Under the pieces are notes generated by a model that saw only the letters and a program-made list of their open reading frames with translations, was not told the DNA's origin and did no database searches. DNA of 64,000 nucleotides, from positions 1 through 64,000 of the forward strand of contig JAHBTJ010000019.1 of NCBI GenBank assembly GCA_019638595.1, read 5' to 3'. A program made the position numbers and the translations under genes. The first letter of the stretch is position 1. Each line of letters opens with the position of its first letter. Shown here in pieces: positions 8,324-64,000 of this stretch. The DNA comes from Chitinophagaceae bacterium. GTDB taxonomy: Bacteria; Bacteroidota; Bacteroidia; Chitinophagales; Chitinophagaceae.

Positions 8324-10438
8324 ATGCAGTGGTATTGTGAATCTTTAACGGAATATAAAAGGCTAAAAACCAGGGAAGTAAATATAGGGGGTTTGCTTAT
8401 TGGCAATTGTAACCCTATACGTGTGCAAACCATGACTACCACTGACACGATGGATACCATCGCCACGGTGGAACAAAGCATCCGCTGCATTGAAGCCGGC
8501 GCAGAGCTGGTTCGTATAACGGCTCCCAGTAAAAAAGAAGCGGAAAACCTGCTGCACATAAAAAATGAGCTGCACAAAAGAGGATATAAAACACCGCTGA
8601 TCGCTGATATCCATTTCACTCCAAATGCTGCGGAAATTGCCGCAAGAATAATAGAAAAGGTTCGTGTTAACCCCGGCAACTATATTGATAAAAAGAAGTT
8701 TGAGTTTATTGAATATACCGATACGGAATATAATGCGGAGATAGAACGTATAAGAGACCGCTTTACGCCATTAGTTAAAATCTGTAAAGAATATGGTACG
8801 GCTATGCGCATCGGCACCAACCATGGCTCGCTGAGCGACAGGATCATGAGCCGCTATGGTGATACGCCCATGGGCATGGTAGAAAGCGCCATGGAGTTTT
8901 TGCGCATTGCCAGGGATGAGCATTATCACAATATTGTGCTGAGCATGAAATCGAGCAACCCGCAGGTAATGGTGCAGGCATACAGGTTACTGGTAAGGCA
9001 GATGACGGATGAGTTTGGCGAAAACTACCCTTTGCATCTCGGGGTAACTGAAGCCGGCGATGGCGAAGACGGGAGAATAAAATCAGCCATCGGTATAGGC
9101 ACGCTGCTGGAAGACGGCATCGGGGATACCATACGGGTGTCCCTGACCGAGGACCCGGAATTTGAAATACCGGTTTGTAAGGATATTGTGAAGAGGTATG
9201 AGGGGGGAAGCTATCAGCTATCAGCTATGGGTTATGAGCCATCAGCCATCAGCTATCAGCTATCAGCAACGGGGAGGAAAGAGGATGAAGGAAGGGAAAA
9301 CGAGATATTGCCTATTCCCCACAGCCCATCGCCCACAGCTCACAGCTCACAGCCCATCGCCCACAGCCCCTTCGAATACCAGCGCCGCGAAACCTTTCAT
9401 ATAGGCAATATCGGCGGGCATCATGTGCCGGTGGTAGTAGCCGACATGAGCAAAGCAGGTCAAATAACCCCTGCCGTTCTTCAACGTATTGGCTATACTT
9501 ATGATGAAGGATTAGACAAATGGAATATCGGTGATATGGCTGCCGATTATATTTATACTGAAAAAGACGAATTGCCTTTTGCTTTACCGGGCACGCTGAA
9601 AGTGATTGTTCCCGGATCGCAATGGGTTTCCTGTAACGACAGGGAAAAGTATTTTCCAATATTTTCTTTGGAAGATTTTATAGTGGCTTCTGCAAAAAGC
9701 AAAGTAATGAATTTTGTGATGCTGGATTGTAACGGCAATAGTATTGATGAAGCTGCTTTAGATACTCTGAAGAATGATAGTACTGTTATATTGTGTTTAA
9801 GCAGCGCCAACAAAAACGCGATGCAATCTGTGCGGAGCATGTTTACTTTGCTCGAAGAAAAGCATATTGACAATCCGGCTATACTGATAACCGACAGCGG
9901 CTGGCAAACGCCTGATGAGCACCTGGTACATTTTGCTACTGAAACGGGCGCTTTATTTTTGGATGGTTTTGGAGATGGCATTTGCTTGGGTATGAAGCAG
10001 GAAAGCTATGATCTGCTTTCTAACAATTATTCACAGTTAAATGCCAGCGGCAGAAACTACATCAATAACAAAAGTGTTGAGCAGTTCATTAATAATACGG
10101 CCTTCTCAATTTTACAGGCTACGCGTACCCGTATTTCCAAAACAGAATATATCTCCTGTCCATCCTGCGGCAGAACATTGTTTGACCTGCAGGAAACTAC
10201 GGCAAAAATTCGTGCAGTAACCAATCACCTGAAAGGGGTAAAAATCGCTATCATGGGTTGTATAGTAAACGGGCCCGGAGAAATGGCTGATGCCGATTTT
10301 GGTTATGTGGGCAGTGGTCCCGGAAAAATTACTTTATACAAAGGGAAGGAAGTGGTAAAAAGATCAGTAAATAGTGATATAGCCGTGGAAGAGCTGATCA
10401 ACCTGTTAAAAGAAAATGATGCGTGGGTGGAGCCGTAA
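8324..10438 (+). CDS. ispG: 4-hydroxy-3-methylbut-2-enyl diphosphate synthase with an in-frame repeat insertion
   Basis: 704 residues. IspG reduces 2-C-methylerythritol cyclodiphosphate to HMBPP in the MEP isoprenoid pathway, using a [4Fe-4S] cluster. The N-terminal TIM barrel starts with NCNPIRVQTMTTTDT. The C-terminal cluster domain has ligands C612 and C615 (CPSCGRT) and C646 (GCIVNGPGE). The long form with a central insert domain (about 350-590) is normal for Bacteroidota. Unusual: residues about 296-349 (bases 9208-9370) are encoded by repetitive 'word' DNA (AGCTATCAGC and CACAGCCCAT units) and are rich in Ser, Pro, His, Gln and Ala. They sit in the linker between the TIM barrel and the central domain. 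The frame stays open across the insertion, so the enzyme is probably functional with an enlarged linker. Confidence 0.95.
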   Translation: MQWYCESLTEYKRLKTREVNIGGLLIGNCNPIRVQTMTTTDTMDTIATVEQSIRCIEAGAELVRITAPSKKEAENLLHIKNELHKRGYKTPLIADIHFTPNAAEIAARIIEKVRVNPGNYIDKKKFEFIEYTDTEYNAEIERIRDRFTPLVKICKEYGTAMRIGTNHGSLSDRIMSRYGDTPMGMVESAMEFLRIARDEHYHNIVLSMKSSNPQVMVQAYRLLVRQMTDEFGENYPLHLGVTEAGDGEDGRIKSAIGIGTLLEDGIGDTIRVSLTEDPEFEIPVCKDIVKRYEGGSYQLSAMGYEPSAISYQLSATGRKEDEGRENEILPIPHSPSPTAHSSQPIAHSPFEYQRRETFHIGNIGGHHVPVVVADMSKAGQITPAVLQRIGYTYDEGLDKWNIGDMAADYIYTEKDELPFALPGTLKVIVPGSQWVSCNDREKYFPIFSLEDFIVASAKSKVMNFVMLDCNGNSIDEAALDTLKNDSTVILCLSSANKNAMQSVRSMFTLLEEKHIDNPAILITDSGWQTPDEHLVHFATETGALFLDGFGDGICLGMKQESYDLLSNNYSQLNASGRNYINNKSVEQFINNTAFSILQATRTRISKTEYISCPSCGRTLFDLQETTAKIRAVTNHLKGVKIAIMGCIVNGPGEMADADFGYVGSGPGKITLYKGKEVVKRSVNSDIAVEELINLLKENDAWVEP
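9208..9370. repeat. Mosaic word-repeat element inside ispG
   Basis: The left part repeats AGCTATCAGC-type words (about 9210-9270). A purine-rich middle (GGGGAGGAAAGAGG) follows, and the right part repeats CACAGCCCATCG words (about 9315-9369). The same words occur in intergenic copies at about 20310-20488 and 55370-55512. The length is about 162 bp, a multiple of three, with no stop codon in the ispG frame. Confidence 0.85.
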
Positions 10439-19830: not shown

Positions 19831-20319
19831 ATGATACAAAACAGGCATGTAACAAAAGAGCAGGCGCTGCAAAAACTAAAGCATTACTGTGCTTACCAGG
19901 AAAGAAGCCACCTGGAGGTAAAAGAGAAGCTGTATTCGTTGGGGCAGTGGAAGCAGGACGTGGAAAACATAATAGCCCAACTGATAGAAGAAGGGTATTT
20001 AAATGAAGAACGTTTTGCCATTCAGTTTGCCGGCGGGAAATTCAGGATGAAGCATTGGGGAAAGAAAAAAATAGAACAGGCCTTAAAGGAAAAACAGGTA
20101 AGCGCCTACTGTATTAAAAAAGCGCTGAAGGAAATACCCGAAGCCGATTACCTGCTAACGCTTGCTAAACAAGCCACCACAAAATGGCAGGACCTAAAAG
20201 GCGAGAAAAATATCTTTATAAAGAAAAGAAAGCTACAGGACTACCTGATCCGGAAAGGCTTTGAATATGATTTGATAAGAGAGCAGATAGGGGAGTGCAG
20301 CAGGATAGGTGAAAGGTAA
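19831..20319 (+). CDS. recX: Regulatory protein RecX
   Basis: 162 residues made of three-helix repeats. It begins with the family's ALQKLKHYCAYQERSHLEVKEKL block, then LIEEGYLNEERFA and GKKKIEQALKEK. RecX binds RecA filaments and limits their extension. The last codons (GECSRIGER) and the stop lie at the edge of a downstream word-repeat element, so the native C-terminus may have been altered slightly. It is transcribed divergently from dnaN. Confidence 0.92.
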   Translation: MIQNRHVTKEQALQKLKHYCAYQERSHLEVKEKLYSLGQWKQDVENIIAQLIEEGYLNEERFAIQFAGGKFRMKHWGKKKIEQALKEKQVSAYCIKKALKEIPEADYLLTLAKQATTKWQDLKGEKNIFIKKRKLQDYLIRKGFEYDLIREQIGECSRIGER

Positions 20320-20488
20320 AAGGTGGAGGGTGGAAGGTAGAGGGTATAGGGCGATGATGGAATTGATGGCTGTTGCAGGTTTCGGGTTTGTTGTTTATAG
20401 TTTGTGGTTTCAACTACAAACAAAAAACCATAAATTGCTGATTGCCGATGGCTGATGGCTCACAGCCCATAGCCCAAGGCTCATAGCA
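20308..20488. repeat. Mosaic word-repeat element between recX and an L,D-transpeptidase gene
   Basis: Three word blocks are seen in order: GGTGAAAGG/GGTGGAGGG words (20308-20340); an A/T block with inverted TTTATAGTTTGTGGTTT and AAACCATAAA arms (about 20390-20434); and GCTGATGGCTCACAGCCCATAGC words (about 20437-20488). A 29-base stretch (20406-20434) is identical to 55391-55419. Confidence 0.85.
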
Positions 20489-20503
20489 AAAAAAGGAACC
20501 CTT

Positions 20504-48842: not shown

Positions 48843-51233
48843 TCAAATCTTAGCCCTTATTTTTTGCCAGAAATTTTGTTTCTTGTTAGAGCCTGAATCA
48901 AAATAATTTTCACCATAACCATAGCCATAACCATAGCCATAACCATATGAATAGCCATAACCGTAGCTTCCGGTAGCACTTACATCATTAATGATTACCG
49001 CAAGATTAGGCAGTTTTTTATTCACATACAATTGATCTAGCAATTGAATTTGTTTTTTGTGAGTATAGTTATGTCTGGTAATATAAATTGTTGCATCGGC
49101 ATATTTGCCAAGCGTATCTGCATCGCTCACCAACCCAATTGGTGCTGTATCAACAATAACCAGATCGAACTTTTTTCTCAAAACAGTAAACATTTCCTCC
49201 ACTTTTGGATCCAGTAACAATTCTCCCGGATTAGGGGGAACGGGACCGCAAGGAATAGCATACAGATTTTCCGCCTGTTCAACCTTATAAATTACCTCCT
49301 CCAGTTGTTTGTCGCCGATGATATAGTTGGTAATTCCTTTTTTTTCTACAAGTCCTAAACCTTTTGCAACTTTCGGTTTCCTGATATCGAATTCAAGTAT
49401 AATTGTTTTTTTTCCTGACAAGGCTAACACCGCAGCCAAATTGGTACAAATAAAAGATTTACCCTCGCCGCTGAATGATGAAGTAACCATTATTACGGCC
49501 TGTTCGTTTTTATTTAAAACATATTGCAGGTTCGATCTTATCATTCTAAACTGTTCAGCTATAAACTGTCGGCTATTCTTGGTAACTACAAGAGAAGCTG
49601 AACCTTCCGAATGACCCACCTCAGCAATTATAGGTGCATTGGTCAGTTGCTCTATATCTGAACGGGAGCTTATTTTATCATTCAAAAACTCCTTTAACGT
49701 AATAATTCCAAGCGGTATCCCTAATCCTATAATTGCGGCAATAATGTAAAGCGCCTTGTGATTGGGCGATACCGGAAAATCGGTAGACCGCGCAGGCTCC
49801 AAAACCTTGATATTTGAGATAGTAGATGCAGAAGAAATGGAGGTCTCTAATTTCTTTTGTAAAAGAAAAGAGTATAATTCCTGCAGAATATTCTGTTGAC
49901 GCGTAACTTCCAGCAATTGCTTTTCTTTGCCGGGAATAGACACTAATTGCTGATCCACCGTTTTACGTTTACGGGCTAAATCCTGCTGAATCACCAGATA
50001 CGTTCTCCGGATATTTTGAAGATTTTCCAGGATATCTTCGCGGATTTTTTCTATCGCTGTCTCATAATTCACGATAACGGGGTTGGCCTCTGTTGTCGTT
50101 TTCAGAGATGTTTCTCTTTCAACCTGTAATTTATTGTAGTCACTCACCTGCTGCAATAGCGAAGGTTCCTCGATACCAAGTGTGGAAGAAACCTTCCTGT
50201 GTGGGTTCCGTTTATCCGTAATATAAGCAATCAAATAATCTATCACCTTTAACTTTACCCCCTGTTGCGCCAGTTCTCTTTCCGAATTTGATAACTCTTC
50301 AAAAAACATTTGTGACTGTTGTTCGGAATTAAAAATCCGGTTAATTTCCCTGTTTTTCTGCAAGTTCCTTTCTACACCCCCAAGTTCCTGCCTTACCGTA
50401 TCGAGCTGTTCGTCAATAAAAGCGAGCATGCTTTCCGATTGCAGCACTTTATCTTCCCTGCTCGATTTCATGTACTCCTGCATGTAGCCATCAACAATAG
50501 ATATGCCCATTCGCGGATTGGGTGATTGATAAGAAATATTCAGCACATTTGTAAAATCGCCGGCTTGTTCTACTTTGAGCGTTTTACTTAAGCTGCTGGC
50601 TAACGTTTCGATCGGTTGCCACGATACTGTAAACACATTGCTTGGAAATGATGACAACCTGTTAACAGAAGCGTTTAATTGAAAATGCACTTTGGGGAGC
50701 GCGATTATTTGACCAAACCTAAATGTCTCTTTGTTATCGTTAATTCTGAAGGTGTTTTCATTCAACAAAGTAATAGTCATTCCAAAGGATGCTGCAGAAT
50801 CTTCAAGAGATAATATTTCGAATACGAAGGGGATATCTTTAGGATGTATTTCAGAAACCCTGATGTTTCCTTTGTTTCCAAAATTAAGTTGAAAGCTAAG
50901 TGAATTAATCACCCGGGCAGCCATTGTTCTTGCTTTGAGAATTTCAATTTCGTCGTTCATGTTACTGCTGGCGCCCTGCATTAAAAAAATGTCTTCAAAT
51001 TTTTCATTTCCACCACCAGACCGGTTGTCTTTCTTTACCAGTATTTTACCAGCTATTTCGTAAATGGGGGTTGAGTATCTTAATTTCAGATATGCAAAGG
51101 TCAATGTTATTACTACAGATAGCATTACCCAGGGCCAATATCTTATGTACTTCAGTAAAAACTCCTTGGGGCTCACCTGCAGGTGTTTTTTGATAGTAAA
51201 ATCAATTTGATTATTTCTTTTTTCTTCCGGCAT
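48843..51233 (-). CDS. Wzc-type polysaccharide co-polymerase and tyrosine autokinase
   Basis: 796 residues. The N-terminal Wzz domain has a membrane segment near 34-50, a long periplasmic coiled coil (about 260-470) and a second segment near 500-525. The C-terminal BY-kinase has Walker A TSSFSGEGKSFICTNLA, Walker A' ILEFDIRKPKV and Walker B LVIVDTAPIG. The tail is a Gly-Tyr repeat with about ten Tyr (SYGYGYSYGYGYGYGYGYG), the phosphorylation cluster. It is expected to control chain length and export in cycles of phosphorylation, reversed by the CpsB-type phosphatase. The coding DNA of the tail is a hexanucleotide array. Confidence 0.95.
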   Translation of the reverse strand: MPEEKRNNQIDFTIKKHLQVSPKEFLLKYIRYWPWVMLSVVITLTFAYLKLRYSTPIYEIAGKILVKKDNRSGGGNEKFEDIFLMQGASSNMNDEIEILKARTMAARVINSLSFQLNFGNKGNIRVSEIHPKDIPFVFEILSLEDSAASFGMTITLLNENTFRINDNKETFRFGQIIALPKVHFQLNASVNRLSSFPSNVFTVSWQPIETLASSLSKTLKVEQAGDFTNVLNISYQSPNPRMGISIVDGYMQEYMKSSREDKVLQSESMLAFIDEQLDTVRQELGGVERNLQKNREINRIFNSEQQSQMFFEELSNSERELAQQGVKLKVIDYLIAYITDKRNPHRKVSSTLGIEEPSLLQQVSDYNKLQVERETSLKTTTEANPVIVNYETAIEKIREDILENLQNIRRTYLVIQQDLARKRKTVDQQLVSIPGKEKQLLEVTRQQNILQELYSFLLQKKLETSISSASTISNIKVLEPARSTDFPVSPNHKALYIIAAIIGLGIPLGIITLKEFLNDKISSRSDIEQLTNAPIIAEVGHSEGSASLVVTKNSRQFIAEQFRMIRSNLQYVLNKNEQAVIMVTSSFSGEGKSFICTNLAAVLALSGKKTIILEFDIRKPKVAKGLGLVEKKGITNYIIGDKQLEEVIYKVEQAENLYAIPCGPVPPNPGELLLDPKVEEMFTVLRKKFDLVIVDTAPIGLVSDADTLGKYADATIYITRHNYTHKKQIQLLDQLYVNKKLPNLAVIINDVSATGSYGYGYSYGYGYGYGYGYGENYFDSGSNKKQNFWQKIRAKI
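48911..48968. repeat. Hexanucleotide-type array in the wzc tail
   Basis: Repeats of CCATAA/CCATAG units on the plus strand encode the Gly-Tyr run. Such arrays can gain or lose units by slippage, always in frame. Confidence 0.7.
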
Positions 51234-55370: not shown

Positions 55371-55512
55371 TTGGTTGTTTTATAGTTTATGGTTTCAACT
55401 ACAAACAAAAAACCATAAACTATAAATTAATTGTTGGGCTTAGATAGCTGTTGCTGTATTGCTCATGGCCCATGGCCCATTGCTGATAGCTCACAGCCCA
55501 TTGCTGACAGCC
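55370..55512. repeat. Mosaic word-repeat element
   Basis: An A/T hairpin block (TATAGTTTATGG, then CCATAAACTATA; about 55380-55426) followed by GCTCATGGCCCATGGCCCATTGCTGATAGC-type words (about 55449-55511). The 29 bases 55391-55419 are identical to 20406-20434. Confidence 0.85.
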
Positions 55513-62543: not shown

Positions 62544-62616
62544 AATTTATGGTTTATGGTTTTTTGTTTATGGTTGAAAACAACAAACCCTGCCCCCGAA
62601 ACTTGTAACCTGTAAT
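62544..62616. repeat. Mosaic word-repeat element (reverse orientation)
   Basis: TTTATGGTTTATGG words, then a GTTGAAAACAACAAAC hairpin, then CCCGAAACTTGTAACCTG. The reverse complement shares AAACAAAAAACCATAAA with the copies at 20.4 and 55.4 kb. Confidence 0.8.
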
Positions 62617-63210: not shown

Positions 63211-63306
63211 TGGTTTATGGCTGTTTGAAGTTGTGTAGACCATAAACTATAAACCACAAACCCAAAATTTGTAACCTGCAACCTGGATAGCTGATAGCCC
63301 AAAGCT
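63207..63306. repeat. Mosaic word-repeat element
   Basis: TTATGGTTTATGG words, CCATAAACTATAAACC, TTGTAACCTGCAACCTGG and GCTGATAGCCC words, in that order. It lies between the RRM terminator and the 3' end of the oxidoreductase gene. Confidence 0.8.
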
Positions 63307-64000
63307 CTACACAACCGGGATCCTGTACCCGTTATGATAAGGTTTGGCAAGGTATTCCTTATTGATCGCATCGTCGGTAAACTTACCGGCAGCTTTGTTC
63401 CAAACAACCCGCTTGCCGCTCCGGAAGGCAATATTGCCCATTTGCGCTACAATAGCAACATCTGCCCCAACCTGTATGGGAGCCGTGAGTTGATCGTATT
63501 GCCCCGAACGAATAGCGGATACAAAATTGTCCGTATGTTTATCGAGCCCGCTTTCGGAAGGTTTAACATGCGGTTTACCTACCTTGTTCTTGGAGTTCTT
63601 TTCTTCAATTATTTCCCAGCCGCCCCTGTCGAGCACCAGGGTTCCATTGTTACCAACAAAGGCTATTCCATGGTCCCTCCCGTATTGCCCATTGTCTATG
63701 CCCATGGCATGATCCCATACCAGGTTAAACTTGTCAAACTCATAAAGGGTAGTGAGCGTATCCGGGGTTTCCTGGGCCAGTTCGGGATAGGCGAATTTGC
63801 CGCCCAGGGCAACCACTGTTTTAGGTACATCTGCTTTCATGCCAAATAAAGCGTAGTCCAGCAAGTGCACGCCCCAATCTGTCATAAGGCCTCCGGCATA
63901 GTCCCAAAACCAGCGAAAGTTAAAGTGAAAGCGGCTGGCGTTAAATGGCTTTTTAGGAGCAGGTCCCAACCAGCCGGCATAATCAACGCCGGGGGGAGGC
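63307..64000 (-). CDS. Gfo/Idh/MocA-family oxidoreductase (C-terminal part; continues beyond window)
   Basis: 231 residues visible; the frame runs off the window edge upstream (the visible part begins PPPGVDYAGWLGPAPKKP). The C-terminal half of the family is recognised by FRWFWDYAGGLMTDWGVHLLDYALFG, then GTLVLDRGGWEI and HTDNFVSAIRSG. The N-terminal Rossmann domain and any signal peptide are outside the window. Probably oxidises a sugar or inositol derivative with NAD(P)+; many such proteins in this phylum are secreted. Confidence 0.85.
   Translation of the reverse strand, partial: PPPGVDYAGWLGPAPKKPFNASRFHFNFRWFWDYAGGLMTDWGVHLLDYALFGMKADVPKTVVALGGKFAYPELAQETPDTLTTLYEFDKFNLVWDHAMGIDNGQYGRDHGIAFVGNNGTLVLDRGGWEIIEEKNSKNKVGKPHVKPSESGLDKHTDNFVSAIRSGQYDQLTAPIQVGADVAIVAQMGNIAFRSGKRVVWNKAAGKFTDDAINKEYLAKPYHNGYRIPVV

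Follow-up and report, generated by a model that had tools for sequence, protein, structure and literature searches.

The window, the whole stretch of 64,000 nucleotides (64 kb) that was analysed, carries on its forward strand an open reading frame identified by profile searches as IspG/GcpE (PF04551, E 2.6e-122; TIGR00612 above its cut-off), of which a search of the source genome gives a single full-length match. Throughout, G000 is the source genome, G-numbers are genomes, L-numbers are loci, and F1 to F4 are labels coined in this analysis for families of words. A match to HMG-CoA reductase is absent from G000 (5 of 14 control genomes do have a match to this family), and so MEP is probably the only isoprenoid route of this organism and ispG probably essential; in the available part of one survey all MEP-using species possess IspG (PMC10663253). 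Residues of about 296 to 349 of the G000 protein, in the linker that joins the TIM barrel to the A* domain, are written by two tandem arrays of a 7-nt unit and the purine-rich sequence between them (Table 1). The words of the right array (ACAGCCC, ATCGCCC, ACAGCTC) are the reverse complements of GGGCTGT, GGGCGAT and GAGCTGT, variants found in forward F1 arrays elsewhere. With at most 2 mismatches allowed, the window has 7 matches to TATCAGCTATCAGC, of which 5 lie within the ispG linker, against 0.34 expected, and none of 100 shuffles reaches 7.

Table 1. Features of the window that bear on the ispG insert (strand as assigned, "." where none is assigned)
Feature	Position	Strand	Remarks
ispG (gcpE)	8324..10438	+	three-domain IspG, 704 aa, single copy; ORF open
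Heptamer array, family F1, CAGCTAT words, translated SYQLSA...	9209..9267	+	TRF: AGCTATC, period 7, 8.4 copies, 84% matches
Purine-rich spacer between the ispG arrays	9268..9317	+	by eye, recognisable in congener G004, not in G003, G005 or G008
Heptamer array CCCACAG/ACAGCCC, F1 family in opposite orientation	9318..9369	-	TRF: CCCACAG, period 7, 7.4 copies
Intergenic heptamer mosaic (GGTGAAA-type, F3 inverted pair, F1)	20296..20492	.	
Intergenic F3 (TTTATGG / CCATAAA) inverted pair	55378..55438	.	
Intergenic F1-family array	55450..55511	-	TRF
Intergenic F3 (TTTATGG) array, not of the ispG word family	62545..62589	.	TRF
Intergenic mosaic of F3, F2 and F1 words	63236..63307	.	

The linker is predicted to be disordered, with a pLDDT of about 31. 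In the AlphaFold2 model (32 sequences, mean pLDDT 76.7) the first ~290 residues resemble solved IspG structures, residues 295-342 fall below a pLDDT of 50 and have no secondary structure, lying between a helix at 278-290 and a strand at 370-374, and the C-terminal region 600-660 is modelled at low confidence. The RNA fold of the insert is ordinary (z -0.05), and at ispG there is no support for spread in the form of an RNA hairpin made by the insert. A 7-nt unit has the property that all three frames of one strand encode the same heptapeptide; by the genetic code, perfect AGCTATC repeats are stop-free in all forward frames and meet a stop in each frame of the reverse complement, and perfect F3 repeats contain stops whichever way round they lie. 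Among 31 F1-like arrays of at least 42 nt, those of ispG excluded, a mean of 1.16 of the 6 frames is open, and we infer that most F1-like landings in genes would therefore break them, the survivors being a filtered remainder.

That a dispersed word-repeat sits inside an unbroken ispG frame, as the first-pass annotation had it, is confirmed by the two period-7 arrays, the 704 open codons and the copies dispersed between genes, and its further reading of the linker as replaced or extended by repeat of intergenic type is upheld in both senses, the ancestral linker of about 17-20 residues having been replaced as well as lengthened. Because of that double change the insert has no clean element edge, and the length said to be a multiple of three fails for the coordinates stated, the span 9208..9370 being 163 nt. 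The frame is indeed stop-free, although this says less than it seems to, since a perfect array of the AGCTATC word is so in every forward frame. Of the four intergenic places said to hold the same word families, those at 20.4 and 55.45 kb do hold the ispG family and the mosaic at 63.2 kb ends in it, but the array at 62.5 kb belongs to the TTTATGG family. The window also has a 6/12/18-nt tandem repeat (ACCATA) at 48912-48962, probably a coding repeat.

Such arrays are a feature of the genome at large. Self-matching at fixed lags over 1.304 Mb of the 7.06-Mb G000 genome (18.5%) gives 52 arrays at lag 7 under a strict threshold, against 0-2 at each lag from 4 to 21 that is not a multiple of 7, with 21 at lag 14 and 10 at lag 21. 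ORFs cover less than 20% of the array in 88% of the 52 and more than 80% in 6%, in a sequence of which the ORF set used (greedy longest ORFs, with no gene caller) spans 90.6%. G000 thus has tandem direct repeats of a 7-nt unit, chiefly intergenic and in many sets, in the manner of the heptanucleotide repeats known elsewhere. At a slightly looser threshold the arrays within ORFs are two in ispG, one in an ORF of 2066 aa, which we take to resemble alpha-2-macroglobulin, and one in an ORF of 113 aa. Genome-wide, an artificial SYQLSA-type peptide query finds F1 words in long open frames of a presumably Rhs-like ORF and of a helicase, as well as matches free of stops within open frames 373 aa and 390 aa long.

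Four word groups dominate in the part of G000 scanned: F1, AAACTAT/AAACCAT (F3), AACCTGT (F2) and AAATCTC (F4). F3 arrays pair in inverted fashion across a short gap, with one polarity in 31 of 32 opposite-strand neighbours; F1+ beside F3- is the commonest neighbour pair (24), followed by F3+ beside F2+ (15, strand-symmetric) and F2+ beside F4+ (11), other orders being rarer, and so the preferred order reads F1+ / F3- loop F3+ / F2+ / F4+. The intergenic arrays therefore resemble elements built of modules, and the ispG insert contains F1 modules only. Polarity and module order of this kind could mean that the arrays are selected for a function, as protein- or RNA-binding or other regulatory motifs or in DNA uptake, nucleoid organisation or termination, with the ispG copy kept for that or for tuning the enzyme. 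Such a reading also draws on the placement of arrays in convergent spacers, which take 28 of the 108 spacer-placed arrays (26%) and make up 14% of spacer bases, and on TAACTGA heptamers elsewhere having been proposed as post-transcriptional sites, in the part of that account available (PMC4679880). We nevertheless consider it quite improbable, given the ordinary RNA fold of the ispG insert, the differing words that lineages carry at one and the same site, and the spacers at 20.3, 55.4, 62.4 and 63.2 kb, at which the mosaics of G000 and its congener G004 are unlike in all four orthologous comparisons. Unlike mosaics between such close species would rather fit an active turnover of the arrays.

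Comparison of ispG across 12 genomes of the genus finds F1 words in G000, G003, G004, G005 and G008, in linkers of 27-55 residues, and TCACCAT-type words in the linkers of G002 and G006; no 7-nt periodicity of this kind is seen in the linkers of G001, G007, G009, G010 and G011. In all 7 repeat-bearing congeners, G000 included, the ispG frame is open, a comparison between species that bears on phase-variable contingency repeats, in which the host gene's frame is switched by altered numbers of units. The four F1-bearing relatives of G000 carry its words at the corresponding site, in stretches of differing length, and so the entry of F1 words into ispG is older than the species, an event unique to this isolate is rejected, and the insertion cannot be called peculiar to this genome as had been supposed. 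Nor do all close relatives share one linker, the other seven congeners having other words or none. With five congeners in agreement, errors in the assembly of the arrays are unlikely. The five form a single clade on the ispG tree, and therefore one entry followed by local change would suffice to account for them. The earlier picture of an actively spreading repeat tolerated as a linker is kept in so far as a repeat of intergenic type is translated in a single-copy ispG, the G000 and G004 mosaics fit turnover and the linker is predicted to be disordered, and gives way in so far as the insertion is not confined to G000. The larger result is that the linker has been filled repeatedly, with words that differ by lineage, and that arrays have also entered a few other conserved enzymes.

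For the wider family ispG loci were taken from a search matching 46 genomes (30 loci) and from the best 80 of 570 of another, 110 in all, of which 96 are left after setting aside four with no motif match (L042, L049, L053, L106), three same-genome duplicates and seven with less than 45 nt between the motif bounds; some bounds are misplaced, for example in L059, L070, L094 and L097. At lag 7, z reaches 3.5 in 16 of the 96 linkers and in 3 of 960 control segments of equal length taken around the same genes, although in 6 of the 16 it is just 3.6-5.3; 17 linkers pass z>=3.0, and at other lags only 0-2 pass either threshold, lag 14 excepted (13 and 16). The other lags and the control segments rule out chance or codon-driven periodicity. 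On a quick ispG tree, in which the seven short linkers are counted as 'other', the lag-7 signal requires at least nine changes, and nine is also the minimum forced by the starred branches. Median length is 31.5 residues for linkers that show the signal (n=16) and 19 for those lacking it (n=79, after removal of three duplicates and eight rows with odd bounds). Some long linkers with no 7-nt period (L060, also L025 and L059) seem to hold other repeats; that of L060, from genome G058, is different and palindromic-looking, and is matched 22 times in that genome, the linker's own copy counted, and once in all in nine other genomes. The IspG of L112, on a contig titled Beijerinckiaceae, groups with Chitinophaga in the tree, the bin being probably mislabelled or contaminated.

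Disordered linkers are often low in complexity, and so the insert might in principle be ordinary low-complexity coding DNA, selected as protein, with its likeness to intergenic DNA a by-product. We hold this to be highly improbable, since the likeness lies in the DNA, at a period of 7 nt that is no codon multiple, and one word family is read in both orientations side by side to give unrelated peptides. The excess of periodic linkers over control segments also speaks against it, as does the presence of intergenic copies, with most arrays lying outside ORFs.

How far the word in a linker is that of its own genome was followed in three cases, with counts that include the linker itself and are all lower bounds. 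The G000 linker has at least 42, 44, 44, 23 and 10 matches in G000, G004, G005, G008 and G003 (40 of 193 first-look candidates scored in G000), and at most 8 are listed in each of the other 14 genomes. The G024 linker has at least 61 in G024 and 48 in G032, with 0-5 listed in each of 11 others, and the G006 linker at least 20 in G006, 25 in its sister G002 and 46 in G032, with 0-9 listed in each of 11 others. Words differ between lineages, and the three linkers match best their own or sister genomes, yet not exclusively. Against a simple rule of own words, G032 has two of the word families in numbers and yet its ispG linker is plain. Over 70 kb of G008 there are 8 occurrences of CGTGAAA words and 4 of TCACCAT words, and CAGCTAT turns up in ispG itself alone, with at least 23 F1 matches genome-wide. 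In stretches of 11-220 kb looked at per lineage, G060 has one further site with a clear copy of its linker word and G062 a few with loose copies, and in G061 the word does not recur in the 10.8 kb looked at. Of 20 match places of the G000 linker inspected, 14 overlap no ORF of at least 100 aa (two of the 20 overlap one another and one is ispG itself). Among the matches scored in G000 there is no recent single donor copy, the best-scoring other match having 82% identity over 62 nt and a shorter one 91% over 43 nt.

Opposite-strand pairing recurs in other genomes. The CGTGAAA family of G024 and G032 pairs across opposite strands with the same polarity in 15 of 15 cases, and also has one same-strand pair, as judged from 60 of the 61 G024 rows (the linker itself omitted) and all 48 of G032. 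Very long CGTGAAA/CGTGAAT arrays in inverted pairs, one of 317 bp, are seen at G024:C98:56604-57783. At G024:C110:18385-18480 all three frames are scored as open over more than 1100 aa at the array, an oddity that could be artefactual.

Heptamer arrays recur at the same loop in three proteins, IspG, a ligase-associated DEXH helicase and MurF-Alr. In the helicase (TIGR04121) the loop lies between DEWHELL and WGISATIGN, and holds F1 words in G000 (z7 10.1) and G004 (12.4) and TCACCAT words in G006 (5.1). Thirteen helicase loci were tried and 11 read, G036 and the distant G042 failing the pattern and G001, G009, G010 and G011 matching weakly in the search; the other eight read show no lag-7 signal, G002 having an apparent short remnant. 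In all three positives the helicase word is the ispG word of the same genome. At the MurF-Alr (NF008897) loop the words are of TCACCTC type in G002 and G006, and in G003 and G005 they are GGTGGAA words, which neither of these two genomes has as its ispG word. Loops were read in 15 of 16 MurF-Alr loci (all except G024), and 11 others show no lag-7 signal, two of them on overlong pieces; for G006, G010 and G020 the pieces are far too long and the z values say little. GGTGGAA words occur once each in the stretches examined of G000 and G004. An RsmB/F-like methyltransferase of G002 (PF01189) has two in-frame heptamer arrays in stretches picked by eye.

A purely local origin, in which freely varying linkers grew their own repeats by replication slippage and resemble intergenic arrays through a shared mutational bias to 7-nt units and certain words, would go well with the dominance of period 7 in the genomes examined, with the 14 residues, or 6 units, by which the helicase loops of G000 and G004 differ, and with the GGTGGAA word of MurF-Alr, of which no other copy is found in 30 kb of G003 or 40 kb of G005. 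It seems unlikely all the same, because slippage alone cannot move a word between genes and two unrelated genes share one word per genome, CAGCTAT being common to ispG and the helicase in G000 and G004, and TCACCAT to the two genes in G006. Moreover, the words of the three tested linkers find far more matches in their own or sister genomes than in most others.

It is instead fairly probable that elements made of heptamer arrays spread mainly between genes and that, within genes, stop-free in-frame copies persist in disordered loops, most often in the TIM-A* linker of ispG. G000, like some of its Chitinophagaceae relatives, has several families of degenerate 7-nt arrays that form polar, modular and often inverted intergenic elements, and these would multiply and turn over faster than genes. 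Copies landing in genes would survive only where they keep the frame, are free of stops and lie in surface loops of dispensable sequence. The IspG linker would on this reading have been overwritten repeatedly, usually with words common in the genome concerned, and its peptide is most likely a passive, disordered tether; we infer both its neutrality and its expression as read. The copying itself may proceed by ectopic recombination or conversion between arrays, together with slippage.

Known systems offer partial parallels, drawn here from the available parts of the accounts cited. Rickettsia palindromic elements (RPEs) are dispersed between genes and in frame inside conserved protein genes, and a guanylate kinase that carries an RPE is both translated and active, its substrate affinity being altered (PMC2229807, PMC10969869). 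The heptamer arrays share with RPEs, as these are described, the presence between genes and in frame in conserved protein genes. RPEs are, however, units of ~150 bp with terminal inverted repeats in Rickettsia, whereas here there is a 7-nt tandem word of variable array length in another phylum, the ispG insert makes no unusually stable hairpin and the same loop takes different words by lineage. Closer in form are TAACTGA direct repeats in Beggiatoaceae, cyanobacteria and five Bacteroidetes, and further intergenic heptamers such as the heptanucleotide repeats of cyanobacteria and the GGGAATC-type of Xanthomonas and Nostoc (PMC4679880, PMC4692102). These too are tandem direct repeats of 7 nt, enriched between genes and with several words mixed in some genomes, and some sets lie within or overlap ORFs, one of them close to where a gene for SAICAR synthase ends, but the repeated in-frame filling of one core-enzyme loop by different words is not described in the portions available (PMC4679880, PMC4692102). 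Rotated and reverse-complemented, the F1 word differs from TAACTGA by one base, and so is not TAACTGA itself, and the words here are degenerate. MITE-like elements are likewise small, dispersed and able to fuse in frame (PMC10969869), and the palindromic-looking repeat of L060 recalls them or REP-like palindromes. Terminal inverted repeats, target-site duplications and a related transposase are the hallmarks of MITEs, to which the heptamer arrays are likened by dispersal and in-frame fusion alone. In-frame repeat entry into core enzymes is, in the same partial sources, described for MITE-like elements and, most of all, for Rickettsia (PMC2229807, PMC10969869). Within the open-access literature heptamer repeats and RPEs are known, and we found no account of heptamer arrays filling core-enzyme loops.

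In the present case in-frame entry is seen repeatedly within one large bacterial family, each time at the same loop of IspG, of MurF-Alr or of the DEXH helicase and with words that differ by lineage, and whether spreading repeats supply protein linkers can be tested by comparison of many genomes. For annotators and structure modellers there is the warning that such loops are not conserved protein sequence. More tentatively, and with somewhat less than even confidence, the arrays could be a distinct class of dispersed bacterial element, made wholly of 7-nt arrays in a preferred module order (as in G000, with polar inverted pairs in G024 and G032), copied in 7-nt steps, its words drifting into lineage dialects and written into core-enzyme loops; if so, loop words would date and trace the spread. 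The relatedness of words between lineages is a lead only, the words being hand-chosen: 11 such words together with TAACTGA from the literature have a mean minimum distance of 2.51, against 3.03 +/- 0.11 for letter-shuffled words, a value reached in 0 of 1000 shuffles.
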